Shown piece by piece: positions 5,186 through 11,568 of a stretch of 11,568 nt of DNA. The notes beneath the pieces were generated by a model. That model was given only the letters and a program-made list of their open reading frames with translations. It had not been told where the DNA came from and did no database searches. Every line of letters starts with the position of its first letter. Positions within the stretch are counted from its first letter, which is position 1. This DNA is from Bacillota bacterium (GTDB lineage Bacteria > Bacillota > Dehalobacteriia > UBA4068), in NCBI GenBank assembly GCA_017439615.1, contig JAFSIU010000189.1:1-11568 (forward strand), given 5' to 3'. The position numbers and the translations under genes are program-made.

Positions 5186-6142
5186 ATGCCGATCAATCAG
5201 AACAAAAAGAAGGTATTTTTTGCCATACTGATCATTGTCTTATTGATTGCTGCAGTGAGTTCTTTCCTTATTATAAAGAATTCTTCAGCCCCTTTTGCAG
5301 TCAGCGAAGATGAATATTGCATTGTCCTGCTTTCTGACACACAGTTTTACAGCCGCAGTCTTCCTGAAACCTTCAATGCAATGACTCAATTCATCACAGA
5401 CAACAAGGCTGCGCTCAATATTCAATATCTGGTACATACAGGCGATATTGTCAACAGCCCTTATGAAAAAGCACAATGGCAGAATGCAGATACCGCTATG
5501 AACAAGCTGACTGATATTCCATATGGCGTGCTGCCCGGCAATCATGACACCGGCAATGGCGAAGACAGATATATTGACTACCGCACTTTTTTCAGCGAAA
5601 AACGTTTTGCCGACAAGGCATGGTATGGCGAAGCACATGAGGGCAACCGCGGACACTATGACCTCATAACACTCGGCACACAGGATTTCATCGTGGTCTA
5701 TCTCAGCGATGAGCCCTCCAGATGCTGCATCGAATTTGCAAATGCTGCATTTGCGAAATATCCTGAACGCATTGGCATTTTATGCACCCATAATTATCTC
5801 GAAGATGATTACAGCCTCACCGATATGGGCGAATATATGCAGAAAAGCATTCTCGAAGCCAATGAAAATGTGCGTATGGTTTTGTGCGGACACAATAGTG
5901 TAACAGGATATCATACCACCACACTGAAAAATGCTGACGGCAAAGAACGCATTGTTCAGAACATCATCGCCAATTATCAGGACAGCCGCAATGATGGCGG
6001 CGGAGGCTATATGCTCTTTTTGAAAATCAATGAAAAAGAGCAGCATATCGAGGGCATAACCTATTCTCCCGTAAAAAATGATTTCGAAGGTCATATCGAA
6101 CCGGAGATCATGGATGAATTCACCATTGCTCTTCCTTGGTGA
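5186..6142 (+). CDS. Membrane-anchored calcineurin-like metallophosphoesterase
   Basis: The 318-aa product has a positively charged N-terminus (KKK at 7-9) and one hydrophobic segment (10-30) that acts as a signal peptide or anchor; the rest would lie outside the membrane. The calcineurin-like fold is shown by LLSDTQFYS (48-56, metal ligand D51), VHTGDIVN (83-90, D87), PGNHD (117-121, N119 and H120), a later histidine in THNYLE (201-206) and CGHNSVTG (234-241, H236). Two departures from the general D-x-H and G-H-x-H pattern are Q53 and S238. The SDTQ variant is common in secreted bacterial members of this superfamily; S238 is less usual and could weaken one metal site. Substrate unknown: phosphomonoesters, diesters or nucleotides are all possible. 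GGGAG lies 8 nt before ATG 5186. The gene appears to be a single transcription unit between a terminator upstream and a new promoter downstream. Confidence 0.9.
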   Translation: MPINQNKKKVFFAILIIVLLIAAVSSFLIIKNSSAPFAVSEDEYCIVLLSDTQFYSRSLPETFNAMTQFITDNKAALNIQYLVHTGDIVNSPYEKAQWQNADTAMNKLTDIPYGVLPGNHDTGNGEDRYIDYRTFFSEKRFADKAWYGEAHEGNRGHYDLITLGTQDFIVVYLSDEPSRCCIEFANAAFAKYPERIGILCTHNYLEDDYSLTDMGEYMQKSILEANENVRMVLCGHNSVTGYHTTTLKNADGKERIVQNIIANYQDSRNDGGGGYMLFLKINEKEQHIEGITYSPVKNDFEGHIEPEIMDEFTIALPW

Positions 6143-6200: not shown

Positions 6201-6229
6201 TTGACTATAATTTTTATTGATGTTAAAAT
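6201..6229 (+). promoter_or_regulatory. Near-consensus promoter driving the leader-lipoprotein-binding protein operon
   Basis: TTGACT (6201-6206) and TAAAAT (6224-6229) are separated by exactly 17 bp, and a TG precedes the -10 (TGTTAAAAT). It is the best promoter match in the window. Transcription would start near 6236, giving a 5' leader of roughly 185 nt before the lipoprotein ATG. Confidence 0.75.
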
Positions 6230-6250
6230 AGTTTAAGCCAATTTAATACT

Positions 6251-6328
6251 TTCGAGTCCATGCACCTAAAAGCCTTTGCTCATGGTAGTGGACCAAAGGG
6301 CAGCTCCGGAAACGTTCCTGCCTCCCTT
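6251..6328 (+). ncRNA. Structured leader RNA, candidate riboswitch of unrecognised class
   Basis: This part of the 5' leader is clearly more GC-rich than the surrounding intergenic DNA and can fold locally. Candidate helices are GTCCA (6256-6260) with TGGAC (6289-6293), mutually exclusive with CCATG (6258-6262) and CATGG (6281-6285). A second hairpin pairs GGCA (6299-6302) with TGCC (6319-6322) and GGAA (6308-6311) with TTCC (6315-6318); AAGGG (6296-6300) with CCCTT (6324-6328) is an alternative. It sits between a strong promoter and a strong terminator directly before a coding start, the usual layout of a transcription-attenuating riboswitch. I compared it from memory with the common classes (TPP, FMN, SAM, lysine, glycine, purine, cobalamin, c-di-GMP, ZTP, fluoride, NiCo, yybP, THF, T-box) and found no match. 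It could also be a free small RNA ending at the terminator. Confidence 0.5.
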
Positions 6329-6354
6329 GTTGAAAAGAAAGACCTGTTAAAATC

Positions 6355-6391
6355 GGCCGTTTGTTTCGCAAGGAAACAAACGGTCTTTTTT
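6355..6391 (+). terminator. Intrinsic terminator in the leader (attenuator)
   Basis: A 13-bp stem (6355-6367 with 6373-6385; one G-T pair) around loop GCAAG is followed by six T residues (6386-6391). It ends only 31 nt before the lipoprotein ATG at 6423, with no room for another promoter in between, so expression of the operon requires readthrough. An upstream AAAGACC (6338-6344) is complementary to GGTCTTT at the 3' base of this hairpin and could extend or compete with the stem. Confidence 0.9.
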
Positions 6392-6422
6392 ATATAAAAA
6401 CATTTTATGGAGGGAATTATTG

Positions 6423-9365
6423 ATGAAAAAGACTTTGACATTACTCCTCATCATGCTGCTCGTCTGCTTTGCAGTCGCAGGCTGCTTCGGCAATAATGAG
6501 CAGAATGAAACCACCACCGCTGCAGCTACGACCACTGTCGTTCCTGAAAAAACCGGCGGTCCCGAGGCTGTTGCCCGCGAACAGCTCTTTATCTATCTCG
6601 ATGGCGTTGCTATCAAAGAGGCAGGCTTTGCCTATGCTGATATTGAATCAGCAATGAAGGACATTACCATCGGCGGCACTGCATATTATGGCGCTGCTGT
6701 CAGCGATCTTGCCAAAGGCGTTGATATGTCTGCTGTCAAGGGCGTTTTCTTTGAAGCAACAGATGGCTATATTTCTTATGCTCCCGATGCTTCAAAGACA
6801 TATGTCGGCGCATTTACCAAAAACGGTGATGCCTATGCCTCTGTTGAGGTTGACGGCAAAAATCTCTATACAGGTATCATTGACGGTGCTTTCCCCTGTG
6901 ATGGCATAAACAAGGTTTATCTCGTAACCACCGCTGCTGATTGGAATGTTGATATTCAAGTAGATGGCAAATCTGTCGGCAGTCTCAATATGGAAGACTT
7001 TATGTTCAAAACTCCCATGGCTGATGGCAGAGTTGCAACCGGTCTCTTTGACGGCTCCTTCATGTATGCAGGCGGCGGCTCTACATACGAAGGCAAATTC
7101 CTCGGCTTTGGCTATGACCAAATGATTGCAAAACTCACTGCAAAGAACATCGCTTTGCCCAAAACTATTGCTGATATGGAAGTTTATGGTACTGTTCAGG
7201 GCAAAGACGGCAAAAATAGCGAATATAATTTCAGAGTTGACCATGAAAAATATTTCGGCAAGATCAGCTTCTTCGCAATGTATGACGGCAAGACCTATAA
7301 TGATATTGCAGGTGCCAAGGTGGGTCTCACTGCATTCATCAATACCAGCGGTCTGCGTTGGATGACCAGCAATGTTACCGCACTCAACTTCATCACCGGT
7401 GAAGAGCCTGCTGCTCCCACTACTGCAGCTCCTGCAGAGCCTACCACAGTTGTTACTCCCGAGCCTGCAACTCCTGCAACACCCGCAGACACTGCACGCG
7501 AACCCCTTTATGTCTATCTTGACGGCGTAGCCCTCAATGAAGCCGGCTTTGCTTATGCTGATATCAAAGCAGCAATGAAGGACATCACCGTTGGCGAAGC
7601 AAACTACTATGCAGCCACTGTTGCAGATATCGCCAAAGGCGTTGACTATTCCACAATCAAAGGCGTTTTCTTCGAATCCACTGACGGTTTCATCTCCTAC
7701 GGTCCCGATCCTGCAAAGGTTTATATCGGTGCATTTGCCAAAAAGGATAAGGGTTATGAATCCATTCAATATGAAGGCAAAGAGCTCTATGCAGGTCTCA
7801 TTGAAGGCGGCATTTCCAGTGAAGGCGTCAATAAGGTTTATCTCGTAACCACCGCTGCTGACTGGAGCGTTGACATTCAGGTCAACGGCAAGTCCATCGG
7901 TGCTCTCACTATGACTGACTATATGCACAAAACTCCCATGCCCGAAGGCGGCAGAGCTGCAACAGGTCTTTATGACGGTTCCTTTATGTATGCAGGTGGC
8001 GGCTCTACATACGAAGGCAAATTCCTTGGCTTTGGTTATGACCAGATGGTCGCCAAACTCATCGGCAAGAAAATGGTCATTCCCGAAAATGTCATTGAAA
8101 TGGAAGTCTATGGCACCGTTCAGGGCAAAGACGGCAAAAATACCGAATACTCCACCAGAGTGGATCATGACAAATATTTCGGTCTCATCAGCTTCTTCGC
8201 TATGTTCGATGGCAAAACCTATAATGATATCGCAGGCGCTCCTGTTGGACTTACCGCGTTTATCAATACCAGCGGTCTTCGCTGGATGACCAGCAATGTA
8301 ACTGCATTGAACTTCATCACCGGTGAAGAGCCTGCTGCTCCCGCTCCCGCAGAGCCCACCGCTCCTGCACCTGCAGAGCCCACTGCTCCCGCACCTGCAG
8401 AGCCCACCGCTCCCGCACCTGCAGAGCCCACCGCTCCCGCTCCCGCAGAGCCCACCGCTCCCGCTCCCGCAGAGCCCACCGCTCCCGCTCCCGCAGAGCC
8501 TGTTGCTCCTGCAGCACCTGAAGCAGTTGTACGCGAAGCTCTTATGATCTATCTTGATGGCGTAGCTGTCAATGAAGCAGGCTTTGCTTATGCTGATATC
8601 GAAGCAGCAATGAAAGACATCACTGTCGGCGATGCAAGCTACTACGGCGCTGCTGTTGCAGATCTGGCTATCGGCGTTGATATGACCACCGTCAAGAGTT
8701 TGTTCTTCGAATCTGCTGACGGGTTCATTTCCGTAGCAACCGATGCTTCCAAAGCCTATCTTGGCGCTTTCGCCAAAAATGATAAGGGCTATTCCTCTAT
8801 TCAATATGAAGACAAAAACCTCTATGCTGGCGTCATCGATGGCGGCATGACCAGCGAAGGCGTTAACAAAGTTTATCTCACCACCACTTCTGCTGACTGG
8901 AGTGTTGAGATCCAGGTTGACGGTCAATCCGTAGGCAAGCTGATTATGGCAGACTTTATGAAAAAGACCCCTATGCCCGAAGGCGGCAGAGTCAATACCG
9001 GTTATTTTGACGGCTCCTTTATGTATGCCGGCGGCGCTTCCACCTATGAAGGCAAATTCCTCGGCTTCGGCTATGACCAGCTTGTTGCCAAGCTTGGTGC
9101 TTTGAAAATGACCATCCCCACCAATATCGCCGAGCTTGAAGTTTATGGTATTGTTCAGGGCAAGGAAGGCAAAAACACCGAATACAAGACTGCAGTTGAC
9201 AATGAAAAATACTTCGGCAATCTCAGCTTCTATGCCATGATGGACGGCAAAACCTATAATGATATCGCAGGCGCACCCATCGGTCTCTCCGCATTCATCA
9301 ATGAAAGCGGACTGCGTTGGATGACCAGCAATGTTACTGTACTCAATTTTATAACTGCAAAATAG
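6423..9365 (+). CDS. Large lipoprotein with three copies of an unrecognised ~276-aa domain
   Basis: The 980-aa product begins with a lipoprotein signal peptide (lipobox AVAG-C21) and a Thr/Ala-rich spacer (about 28-50). Three homologous domains follow: residues 52-326, 359-634 and 704-980. They are separated by Pro/Thr/Ala linkers, one made of seven 8-residue repeats (641-696). Each domain has the conserved blocks YLDGVA, EAGFAYADI, AMKDIT, YY(G/A)A, DG(Y/F)IS, NKVYL, DGSFMYAGG, STYEGKFLGFGYDQ, VYG.VQGK and GLRWMTSNVT. The first half (YYG-A-V-DL, VKGVFFEATDGYIS) weakly recalls the oxidoreductase molybdopterin-binding fold, but no cysteine is conserved among the three copies. I do not recognise the family. 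It is first in an operon with two metal/cofactor-type substrate-binding proteins, suggesting surface ligand capture; this is inference. I chose ATG 6423 (8 nt after GGAGGG) over TTG 6420. Expression is probably controlled by the leader and terminator immediately upstream. Confidence 0.85.
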   Translation: MKKTLTLLLIMLLVCFAVAGCFGNNEQNETTTAAATTTVVPEKTGGPEAVAREQLFIYLDGVAIKEAGFAYADIESAMKDITIGGTAYYGAAVSDLAKGVDMSAVKGVFFEATDGYISYAPDASKTYVGAFTKNGDAYASVEVDGKNLYTGIIDGAFPCDGINKVYLVTTAADWNVDIQVDGKSVGSLNMEDFMFKTPMADGRVATGLFDGSFMYAGGGSTYEGKFLGFGYDQMIAKLTAKNIALPKTIADMEVYGTVQGKDGKNSEYNFRVDHEKYFGKISFFAMYDGKTYNDIAGAKVGLTAFINTSGLRWMTSNVTALNFITGEEPAAPTTAAPAEPTTVVTPEPATPATPADTAREPLYVYLDGVALNEAGFAYADIKAAMKDITVGEANYYAATVADIAKGVDYSTIKGVFFESTDGFISYGPDPAKVYIGAFAKKDKGYESIQYEGKELYAGLIEGGISSEGVNKVYLVTTAADWSVDIQVNGKSIGALTMTDYMHKTPMPEGGRAATGLYDGSFMYAGGGSTYEGKFLGFGYDQMVAKLIGKKMVIPENVIEMEVYGTVQGKDGKNTEYSTRVDHDKYFGLISFFAMFDGKTYNDIAGAPVGLTAFINTSGLRWMTSNVTALNFITGEEPAAPAPAEPTAPAPAEPTAPAPAEPTAPAPAEPTAPAPAEPTAPAPAEPTAPAPAEPVAPAAPEAVVREALMIYLDGVAVNEAGFAYADIEAAMKDITVGDASYYGAAVADLAIGVDMTTVKSLFFESADGFISVATDASKAYLGAFAKNDKGYSSIQYEDKNLYAGVIDGGMTSEGVNKVYLTTTSADWSVEIQVDGQSVGKLIMADFMKKTPMPEGGRVNTGYFDGSFMYAGGASTYEGKFLGFGYDQLVAKLGALKMTIPTNIAELEVYGIVQGKEGKNTEYKTAVDNEKYFGNLSFYAMMDGKTYNDIAGAPIGLSAFINESGLRWMTSNVTVLNFITAK
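6576..7400 (+). repeat. Domain copy 1 of the triple-domain lipoprotein
   Basis: Residues 52-326. It is closest to copy 2 at both protein and DNA level: runs around the KVYLVTT block, the GSTYEGKF block and the FITGEEPAAP junction are nearly identical. It has the only cysteine in any of the domains (C159, in FPCDG), replaced by Ser in the other two copies. Confidence 0.85.
7497..8324 (+). repeat. Domain copy 2 of the triple-domain lipoprotein
   Basis: Residues 359-634. The end of this copy and the start of the following linker match copy 1 at the DNA level (same codons for NFITGEEPAAP), which indicates that the unit duplicated was domain plus linker start. Confidence 0.85.
8343..8510 (+). repeat. 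Seven 24-bp tandem repeats encoding (APAEPTAP)n linker
   Basis: Seven in-frame 24-bp units, each coding for APAEPTAP (the last APAEPVAP), link domains 2 and 3. Units 2-4 begin GCA CCT and units 5-6 begin GCT CCC, so copies have been homogenised in blocks, as expected from slippage or unequal recombination. The Pro/Ala/Glu composition suggests an extended spacer. Confidence 0.97.
8532..9362 (+). repeat. Domain copy 3 of the triple-domain lipoprotein
   Basis: Residues 704-980, ending at the C-terminus without any anchor or tail. It is the most diverged copy (for example AGGAST instead of AGGGST, TTTSAD instead of VTTAAD), though the end block GLRWMTSNVT is unchanged. Confidence 0.85.
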
Positions 9366-9463: not shown

Positions 9464-10612
9464 ATGAGTCGCTTGAACAAAATTCTCAAAATCGCTTTTT
9501 TAGTTTTGTCTGTCTTATGTCTGACCTTGCTCATTGCCGCCTGCGGTCCTGCAACAGAATTAGACCCTGACAAAAAGATCGTCGTTGACCTCATCGGCAA
9601 TGAAGTAGCCGTTCCGAAGGAACCCCAGCGCATTGCAGCTATGACCGGTCCTTCCTATGAAATGGTCTTTATGCTTGGCGCTGCTGACAAAGTCGCTATG
9701 GTTAAATCCGGCCATACCACCAATTATCCTTTGGCCCTTCTCACCTACCCCGAATTAGCAAATATCAATACCGTTGCTGCTAACCCCAGCTCCTCTGTTA
9801 ATATCGAGGACTATCTGAAACACAATGTTGACCTCGTAATCTATTATGAAAACGACACTGAATTGAAGAAATTCCGTGATACAGGCGTTCCCGCTGTTGT
9901 TCTCACTCTCAATACCGGCTTCTTCGACAGCAAAGAGGATGCAATGAATCAAGGCTTCGATACTTACAAAACCAATGCAACTGCAGCAGTCAAAACACTT
10001 TCTGAAATTCTCGGCACCGAAGAAGCTAAAAACGAATTTGATACTTGGTATAAATATACCACTGAAAAACTCGAACTCGTCTATAACCGCACCAAAGATA
10101 TCAAAGAAGAGGACAGACCCATTGTTTATTGGGGCAATACCTGGGGCGAAAATATTCTTGCCTCCTACGGCATTCAGAATCGCTGCTATGAAGTCTGGCT
10201 TGCAGGCGGCAATCTTGTCGGTCCTGTTGGCGGCGGCAATTTCCCCGAAGTCACCGCAGAACAGCTTTATGACTGGGATCCCGATATCATCCTCGTAGAC
10301 AATCACGGCAATTATCCCGACCTCGTCATCAAACATATGATGAAGGAAGGCGGTCAGTGGCAGACATTACGGGCTGTCAAGAACAATCAGTTGCACCGCA
10401 TCCCCGCAGGCGTTTTCTTCCTCGACAAAGGCACCACCAATGGCCTGATCATTCTGTGGCTCGCTACTGTTATTCAGCCTGAGCTCTTTACTGATGTCAA
10501 TATGGCTGAAGAAATCAAATATTACTACAATGAATTCTATGAATATGAAATGACACTTGATGAAGCCCAGAAGGTTCTTGACGGCTGGCATGACATCCTG
10601 GGAGATTTCTGA
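9464..10612 (+). CDS. ABC transporter substrate-binding lipoprotein, iron/siderophore/cobalamin-type
   Basis: The 382-aa product has a lipoprotein signal peptide (IAA-C27) and the class III binding-protein fold (Peripla_BP_2, PF01497; FepB/BtuF/heme-type). The N-terminal lobe starts with IVVDLIGNEVAVPKEPQRIA (39-58), continues with YEMVFMLGAADKVAMV (the usual E-x-x-x-x-LG-A segment) and SVNIEDYLKHNVDLVIYY. A helical backbone leads to the second lobe with VYWGNTWGENILASYG, LAGGNLVG and DWDPDIILVDNHG. Such proteins deliver chelated iron, heme or cobalamin to a membrane permease; the ligand here is unknown. GGAGG lies 7 nt before ATG 9464. It is followed after 23 bp by a paralogue, and no permease or ATPase lies in the window. 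It probably depends on readthrough from the lipoprotein gene. Confidence 0.9.
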   Translation: MSRLNKILKIAFLVLSVLCLTLLIAACGPATELDPDKKIVVDLIGNEVAVPKEPQRIAAMTGPSYEMVFMLGAADKVAMVKSGHTTNYPLALLTYPELANINTVAANPSSSVNIEDYLKHNVDLVIYYENDTELKKFRDTGVPAVVLTLNTGFFDSKEDAMNQGFDTYKTNATAAVKTLSEILGTEEAKNEFDTWYKYTTEKLELVYNRTKDIKEEDRPIVYWGNTWGENILASYGIQNRCYEVWLAGGNLVGPVGGGNFPEVTAEQLYDWDPDIILVDNHGNYPDLVIKHMMKEGGQWQTLRAVKNNQLHRIPAGVFFLDKGTTNGLIILWLATVIQPELFTDVNMAEEIKYYYNEFYEYEMTLDEAQKVLDGWHDILGDF

Positions 10613-10635: not shown

Positions 10636-11568
10636 ATGAAGCTTAATAAAATCCTGAGTCTTTTGCTATGCATCTTATTGCTAACCGCAACACTGCTTGC
10701 AGGCTGTGCATGGACAGAACAAAAAGAAATCGAAAACGGCGTCACGATCATTGATAATGCAGGCAGAGAGGTTACCGTTCCTTTGAATACACAACGCATC
10801 GCAGCTATGACCGGTCCTTCCTATGAAATGCTCTTTATGCTCGGTGCTGCTGACAGAATCGCAATGGTCAAAGCCGGTCATACCACAGACTATCCTGTTG
10901 CGCTGATGCTCAATCCCGATTTGGCAAATATCGTAACCGTTGGTGCCAACCCCAACACCTCAGTCAATATCGAAGACTATCTCAAGAACAATGTTGACCT
11001 GGTTCTTTATTATGCCAATGATAATGAGTTGAAAAAATTCGAAACAGCAAATATTCCCGTTGTAGCGGTTTCCTCAGGCGGCGGCAGCTCCACAGAAACA
11101 GACGATGCCTACACAAGCAAAAAGACCGTCGAATATATCAAGAATATGACCGTCAAGGAATATGTCGACGACAAATGCCTCAGCATCAAGAATATCGCAA
11201 TGATACTCGGCGACGAGGCTATGGCAAAATACGAGAAATGGTATGATTACAATCTCGAGGTCGCCGAAAAGCTCTATGAACGCACCAAAGACCTCAAGGA
11301 TGAAGACAGACCTACTGTTTATTGGGCAAATACCTGGGGCGAAAATGTTCTCGCTACCTGCGATATCACAAATCATTATTATGATGTAATGCTTGCAGGC
11401 GGCACCTTCTACGGTCCGATGACTTCAGGCGGCAATTTCCCTGAGATCACCGCGGAACAGCTTTATGACTGGGATCCCGATGTCATCATCGTGGATAATC
11501 ACGGCAATTATCCCGAGCTTGTTATCAAATCAATGCAGAAAGAGACTTCACAATGGGCATCTCTTTCC
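10636..11568 (+). CDS. Second ABC transporter substrate-binding lipoprotein, partial (C-terminus outside window)
   Basis: The ATG at 10636 follows AAGGAGG (10621-10627) by 8 nt and the frame is open for 311 codons to the window edge. It has a lipobox (LAG-C24) and is a clear paralogue of the preceding gene: both share QRIAAMTGPSYEM, FMLGAAD, GHTT-YP, SVNIEDYLK-NVDLV, TWGEN, and EQLYDWDPD, with several nearly identical DNA stretches (for example 9629-9664 with 10795-10830). The main difference is after the first lobe: SSGGGSSTETDD and following residues (about 147-203) are unrelated to the neighbour and about nine residues longer. The pair arose by tandem duplication; divergence near the cleft suggests different ligands or partners. 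The last roughly 70 residues are missing if it matches its neighbour in length. Confidence 0.9.
   Translation, partial: MKLNKILSLLLCILLLTATLLAGCAWTEQKEIENGVTIIDNAGREVTVPLNTQRIAAMTGPSYEMLFMLGAADRIAMVKAGHTTDYPVALMLNPDLANIVTVGANPNTSVNIEDYLKNNVDLVLYYANDNELKKFETANIPVVAVSSGGGSSTETDDAYTSKKTVEYIKNMTVKEYVDDKCLSIKNIAMILGDEAMAKYEKWYDYNLEVAEKLYERTKDLKDEDRPTVYWANTWGENVLATCDITNHYYDVMLAGGTFYGPMTSGGNFPEITAEQLYDWDPDVIIVDNHGNYPELVIKSMQKETSQWASLS

Follow-up and report, generated by a model that had tools for sequence, protein, structure and literature searches.

An 11,568-nucleotide stretch of DNA (the window) carries in front of a lipoprotein gene a leader RNA that, with a probability of roughly 0.8, works as a transcription-terminating OFF switch of the riboswitch class RF01055, in its P3-less, tungsten-linked form, and controls uptake of tungstate and/or molybdate by a BtuCD-type importer. 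This reading retains one part of the original prediction, a riboswitch whose expression platform is a terminator ahead of a nutrient-uptake operon, and gives up the other, a new riboswitch class, because of the RF01055 match described below.

The window is one entire contig (C130) of a 74% complete, 1.26-Mb genome split into 206 contigs. The leader lies between a metallophosphoesterase gene (5186-6142) and the gene for a 980-aa lipoprotein (ATG at 6423), and its features and those of the genes that follow are:

6201..6229, forward strand: sigma-70-type promoter-like site, TTGACT-17-TAAAAT, with TG before the -10
6240..6356, forward strand: Moco/Tuco riboswitch aptamer, RF01055, P3-less form (Rfam covariance model)
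6242..6253, forward strand: 5' strand of P1 (MFE fold, Rfam alignment)
6256..6293, forward strand: P2 with tetraloop receptor (CCUAA 6265-6269, AUGG 6282-6285)
6298..6323, forward strand: P4 with GAAA tetraloop at 6309-6312
6326..6344, forward strand: predicted antiterminator strand, overlapping the 3' strand of P1 and able to pair with 6355-6372 (energy model)
6355..6391, forward strand: intrinsic terminator, 13 bp plus six T
6409..6413, forward strand: ribosome-binding site GGAGG
6423..9365, forward strand: lipoprotein with three domain copies
9464..10612, forward strand: PF01497 substrate-binding lipoprotein related to HI_1472 (which we take to be MolA)
10636..11568, forward strand: second PF01497 substrate-binding lipoprotein, ending at the contig edge

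The promoter had been described as near-consensus and agrees with 10 of 12 consensus positions, while promoter-like sites as such were no more frequent in the region than expected by chance (6 versus 4.4 +/- 1.9 in shuffles). Judged from the promoter spacing, transcription would be expected to start near 6236. The terminator is likewise present where it had been placed, its T run ending 31 nt before the lipoprotein ATG. Its hairpin (6355-6385) consists of 13 pairs, 6 of them G-C, around a 5-nt loop, is followed by TTTTTT at 6386-6391 and folds at -18.9 kcal/mol when taken alone. Four terminator-like sites were found in the region compared with 1.5 +/- 1.4 in shuffles, the other three having 5 to 7 pairs. 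Elsewhere in the window, positions 2-2531 of the minus strand encode a TPM-domain protein, a TelA-family ('toxic anion resistance') protein and a PF10112 protein in one cluster.

A covariance-model scan of the window against all of Rfam 15 returned RF01055 as the sole match at gathering level, with 54.6 bits against a gathering threshold of 36, an E-value of 4.7e-11 for the whole window and coverage of model positions 1-135 of 135. Since this full-length match exceeds the gathering threshold, the leader RNA is a member of the known Moco/Tuco riboswitch class and not a new class, and the statement that it fits no known class falls; the structured block reported from the sequence, on the other hand, is real beyond chance. 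The structural hallmarks of RF01055 (P1, P2, P4, the conserved junction as well as a GNRA tetraloop and its receptor) are present in the window. P1 comprises 12 pairs in the MFE fold (6242-6253 with 6337-6351), with CUUUC 6249-6253 facing GAAAG 6337-6341 and an extension of 6242-6248 with 6345-6351, and the P4 helix is broken by a 3x3 mismatch (6304-6306/6315-6317). The helices at 6256-6293 and 6296-6328 had been taken for mutually exclusive structures; they match stems P2 and P4 of a single aptamer and coexist. The short motifs noted earlier lie at their given positions (GGAAAC at 6308-6313, AAAGACC at 6338-6344 and GGTCTTT at 6382-6388), the first comprising the P4 tetraloop GAAA together with the pair that closes it and the second beginning within, and thus overlapping, the 3' strand of P1. 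The score of the window is below that of most relatives, which ranged from 43.4 to 92.7 bits among the matches listed. A reading as Yfr19, with 25.8 bits against a gathering threshold of 70 and spanning the terminator and sequence just upstream of it, was rejected.

Homologous leaders in front of related lipoprotein genes, which had been suggested as a source of covariation, were found as RF01055 matches in 8 of the 14 other loci (one of them, L120, belonging to the relative G006), so that 9 of 15 loci including the window share this arrangement. Two of the 14 (L115 and L128) lie too near a contig edge for a search of the upstream leader, and four of the 12 other loci with sufficient upstream DNA (L119, L121, L125 and L126) gave no RF01055 match even at E<=1. 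In the nine lipoprotein-linked aptamers, 19 of the 24 predicted pairs of P2 and P4 show changes on both sides with pairing kept in at least one sequence. P1 was absent from the consensus fold of these nine, whose alignment was not structure-fitted, and its covariation was thus not seen there.

The association of RF01055 with this gene neighborhood extends to an operon with a conserved order of lipoprotein, PF01497 binding protein, FecCD permease, ATPase, second lipoprotein and DUF364 protein. Within the reach of each contig, the order is kept in 13 of the 14 relatives' loci, the exception being L128, which is rearranged with the binding protein last and in which the DUF364 gene was not found. 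Of the 14 loci, 13 have the FecCD permease and 11 the ATPase, the remainder ending at a contig edge; the second lipoprotein was likewise found in 11, the other three ending before its place, and that protein (L117:13838-14671) has no Pfam or NCBIfam match at E<=0.001. The window contig itself ends after the two binding-protein genes and carries neither permease nor ATPase; the two FecCD genes of the host genome are on other contigs. The relatives' loci are mostly from Clostridia and other Bacillota, with one from Anaerolineaceae. Both the operon order and its link to RF01055 are shown here by computation.

The two binding proteins of the window are 57% identical over the part present. The best solved relative is 4ovk (E 1.7e-30 in a single-sequence and 8.5e-33 in a profile search), and the similarity to HI_1472 is also clear (E 2.3e-17 single, 4.6e-23 profile). 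In the portions of the literature considered here, MolA is described as binding molybdate and tungstate (PMC4031551), and DUF364 genes are placed in the neighborhood of iron, tungstate, vanadium and molybdate transport genes (PMC2954201). Because of the MolA-related binding protein and these DUF364 contexts, the operon is likely to import tungstate and/or molybdate and less likely to import iron or a corrinoid, as far as sequence relatives and gene context indicate. The earlier view that the downstream lipoprotein and binding-protein genes suit a metal- or cofactor-sensing RNA agrees with the HI_1472-related PF01497 proteins. Two loci carry further genes of note upstream of the operon. One is L124, where the gene is MoeA. 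The other is L121, where the operon lacks the riboswitch and is directly preceded by a regulator (L121:102-1310) in which a ModE-type HTH is fused to a TupA-like domain (TIGR00637 E 1.1e-19 and NF041772 E 5.7e-32, both below their cut-offs; PF12849 above its cut-off). There the riboswitch appears to be replaced by a ModE-type/TupA-like regulator, which therefore indicates the same metals.

The first gene of the operon encodes a protein of which little could be assigned by homology. Its domain is about 270 residues long, and the second and third copies share 72 and 70% identity with the first; short PAPAEPTA-type repeats lie between the second and third domains (window 8360-8540). No credible Pfam family was found for the domain. 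DHX29 UBA, Cornifin and biotin carboxylase (Pfam/NCBIfam) all scored below their cut-offs, even though the precomputed annotation of the protein database assigns the DHX29 UBA family, and none of ten families that each matched 1 or 2 of 34 domain members at E<=0.1 was accepted as real. Comparison of the domain profile with the PDB gave nothing significant (best E 0.17). One whole-protein relative (P0002, 83% identical, 970 aa), encoded on a 32-kb contig, was recovered when the 7,998 most word-sharing candidates among 5.8 billion proteins were scored, and a search with the domain profile, which scored 7,999 candidates under length limits that exclude multi-domain relatives, found at least 37 proteins with lengths of 170 to 367 aa. 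The profile matched 30 of 249 genomes and was full-length in just two (the host genome and G006); partial matches, which reach no further than about 140 N-terminal positions and consist mainly of the signal peptide, were not counted, although one at a contig edge (G019:C26, 41.9 bits) could be real. Comparison with PF00174-like domains gave a profile-comparison probability of 45% and a pairwise E of 2e-4 over 72 residues, with four controls at or below 1.5%, which is suggestive only of a possible remote kinship.

RF01055 is common beyond these loci and exceeded the gathering threshold in at least 52 of 101 genomes searched. Among the matches listed, the window's family and one genome of its order account for 32 elements; a gene for a binding protein or FecCD permease begins within 6 kb of at least four of these, and at least five are accompanied by a TupA-type match; one of these TupA-type matches (L095, E 4e-14) resembles ModA by eye. 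These counts are lower bounds because many of the contigs end early. The host genome contains two further, weaker matches that stay below gathering (31.2 and 30.4 bits), both on the minus strand and with a terminator by our own rule: L002 (1501-1609) precedes an SLH-domain protein and L003 (776-888) a TupA-like binding protein cut by the contig end. A second RF01055 match of 61.8 bits was observed at L124 (17024-17141), about 7 kb downstream of the first. When coordinates were compared among the matches listed, RF01055 RNAs of eight relatives (G006:C19, G010:C123, G016:C9, G051:C28, G057:C1, G063:C1, G035:C145 and G090:C20) were also seen to be followed on the same strand, at a distance of up to about 4 kb, by genes for PF00174-like (sulfite-oxidase-fold) domains, with many of the matches being weak.

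Closer examination of the aptamer bears on its ligand, for which iron, heme or cobalamin had been guessed and for which we propose the tungsten or molybdenum cofactor instead. The P3 stem is missing in the window (GGACC-AAA-GGGC) as well as in the other eight lipoprotein-linked aptamers, where by eye just 3 nt lead from P2 to GGG. The parts of Regulski et al. 2008 (PMC2408646) used here give 58 of 176 Moco/Tuco RNAs as lacking P3 and state that in 17 of 19 organisms P3-less RNAs occur alongside genes for the tungsten cofactor, so exceptions exist; two P3-less RNAs precede putative sulphite oxidases in S. wolfei. The host genome has four aldehyde-oxidoreductase-type (AFOR_N) matches, none on the window contig, and a TupA-like gene, a 243-aa fragment scoring 128.6 bits, which is below the model cut-off of 400. 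The P3-less form, the AFOR_N matches and the TupA-like gene together therefore favor the tungsten cofactor as ligand, as a correlation.

The same RNA class could also sense the molybdenum cofactor and control molybdate import, a possibility that we consider the lesser one but worth keeping in view. The AFOR_N matches, counted above for tungsten, are shared by E. coli and four other controls, the host genome contains one PF00384 molybdopterin oxidoreductase match (off the window contig), and MolA is described as binding both oxyanions (PMC4031551). Furthermore, P3 is a correlative mark of specificity, and its deletion from the E. coli RNA abolished regulation and did not switch it in the data presented in PMC2408646. 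These points have to be weighed against the absence of P3 in the window, the number of AFOR_N matches and the TupA-like sequences both in the host genome and in the regulator at L121, which argue for tungsten.

With the tungsten cofactor as the favored ligand, the proposed OFF switch would operate as follows. Abundant cofactor would bind the aptamer and keep P1 closed, which would make the 3' strand of P1 unavailable as an antiterminator; the terminator at 6355-6391 would then form and the operon would be off. When cofactor is scarce, 6326-6344 would sequester the terminator's 5' arm plus its loop (6355-6372) by base pairing and the polymerase would continue. The products in the on state would be the lipoprotein and the MolA-like binding protein, and in relatives also the FecCD permease, the ATPase, the second lipoprotein and the DUF364 protein, which would make up a BtuCD-type importer.

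In the energy model, the antiterminator of the window is interrupted by mismatches and pairs 6326-6330 with 6368-6372, 6332-6335 with 6364-6367, 6337-6339 with 6360-6362, 6341 with 6358 and 6343-6344 with 6355-6356. The P1 state was preferred over the antiterminator for transcripts ending at 6367 (-32.3 versus -25.7) and 6372 (-32.4 versus -31.2), while the antiterminator was preferred at 6376 (-35.7 versus -33.0, a gap of 2.7 kcal/mol) and the terminator state prevailed at 6380, 6384 and 6388. Because the antiterminator leads at 6376 and loses to the terminator from 6380, any switching would be kinetic.

A terminator was identified by our own rule in 67 of 72 RF01055 elements, a subset of the matches listed that comprises the window's family, genome G034, the loci and a few elements near binding proteins, and that also takes in the two weak own-genome matches, seven lipoprotein-linked elements and the window. 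On average, the P1 3' region pairs with the 5' arm of its own terminator at -13.3 kcal/mol compared with -10.2 kcal/mol for swapped partners (permutation sd 0.32), and none of 20,000 permutations reached -13.3, a value that is not an exact probability as the elements are related to differing degrees. In the shuffled-arm control, p was below 0.05 in 38 of 67 elements, and the window ranked 7 of 67 with p 0.04. The fit to the own terminator had p below 0.05 in 7 of the 9 members of the lipoprotein-linked set, which includes the window, and was no better than chance in this test for L116 (p 0.115) and L122 (p 0.464). The order of events from ligand-bound P1 to terminator to silenced operon is thus supported, though unproven, by a complementarity of P1 3' strand and terminator that runs through the class.

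That the aptamer belongs to the class but has lost its switching, with the terminator acting as fixed attenuation, appears unlikely. The weak, mismatched antiterminator facing a strong terminator would be in keeping with such a loss, as would a score below that of most relatives among the matches listed; however, the antiterminator fit beats shuffled arms at the p value and rank given above, and the junction, receptor and tetraloop of the aptamer are retained.

An importer for an iron chelate, a corrinoid or a similar compound, tied to cofactor supply indirectly through the RNA, is about as improbable. Substrates of this kind are the usual ones for FecCD permeases and PF01497 proteins, and the best NCBIfam model for the permease of one relative is BtuC (241.3 against a cut-off of 461). 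The RNA class, the similarity to MolA, the ModE-type/TupA-like regulator at L121 and the MoeA gene at L124 all point away from it. The new riboswitch class of the original prediction is hardly credible in view of the full-length match above gathering, and no point in its support was found.

The preferred reading of a riboswitch-controlled tungstate and/or molybdate importer may be part of a wider picture, which we offer tentatively: a previously undescribed tungsten-uptake system made up of a tungsten-cofactor riboswitch (in one relative, a ModE-type/TupA-like regulator), a BtuCD-type importer, a new family of capture lipoproteins, perhaps with a distant sulfite-oxidase fold, and a DUF364 enzyme, with tungsten perhaps carried as a chelate. 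Among the publications listed in a literature search thin on subscription journals, none tied the operon or the lipoprotein family to the riboswitch as far as its listing shows; such a permease may have been mentioned earlier, for instance in the 176-RNA alignment (S4) of Regulski et al. In the sections considered, PMC3766115 names molybdenum and tungsten transporters in general among functions under RNA control, and PMC11980592 lists Tup, Wtp and Mod as three transporter types for tungsten and molybdenum. A BtuCD-type tungsten importer, if true, would extend this list, beside MolBCA of Haemophilus. The RNA is one further case of a known class, and what deserves further attention is the conserved operon: the riboswitch ties six genes, with two lipoprotein families that lack a Pfam match, to the supply of tungsten or molybdenum and therefore gives both families a testable function.

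Compared with the P3-less RNAs described in the available parts of Regulski et al. (PMC2408646), the window shares P1, P2, P4, the GAAA loop, the receptor and the absence of P3, and a terminator follows the aptamer on its 3' side as in some published Moco/Tuco examples; the 3x3 mismatch in P4 sets it apart from the published RNAs, as does the operon behind it, no description of which turned up for this class in the literature covered here. DUF364 (PF04016) proteins, labeled 'putative heavy-metal chelation', are encoded by the last operon gene in relatives and by none on the window contig. TupABC, WtpABC and ModABC have the same presumed purpose of tungstate or molybdate uptake but are another type of ABC importer, whereas the genes described here are of the FecCD/BtuCD type. 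The MolBCA importer of Haemophilus influenzae (HI_1470-1472) shares the HI_1472-related PF01497 protein and, with the operon of the relatives, a FecCD-type permease and an ATPase, to which the operon described here adds the extra lipoprotein families, the DUF364 protein and control by a riboswitch.
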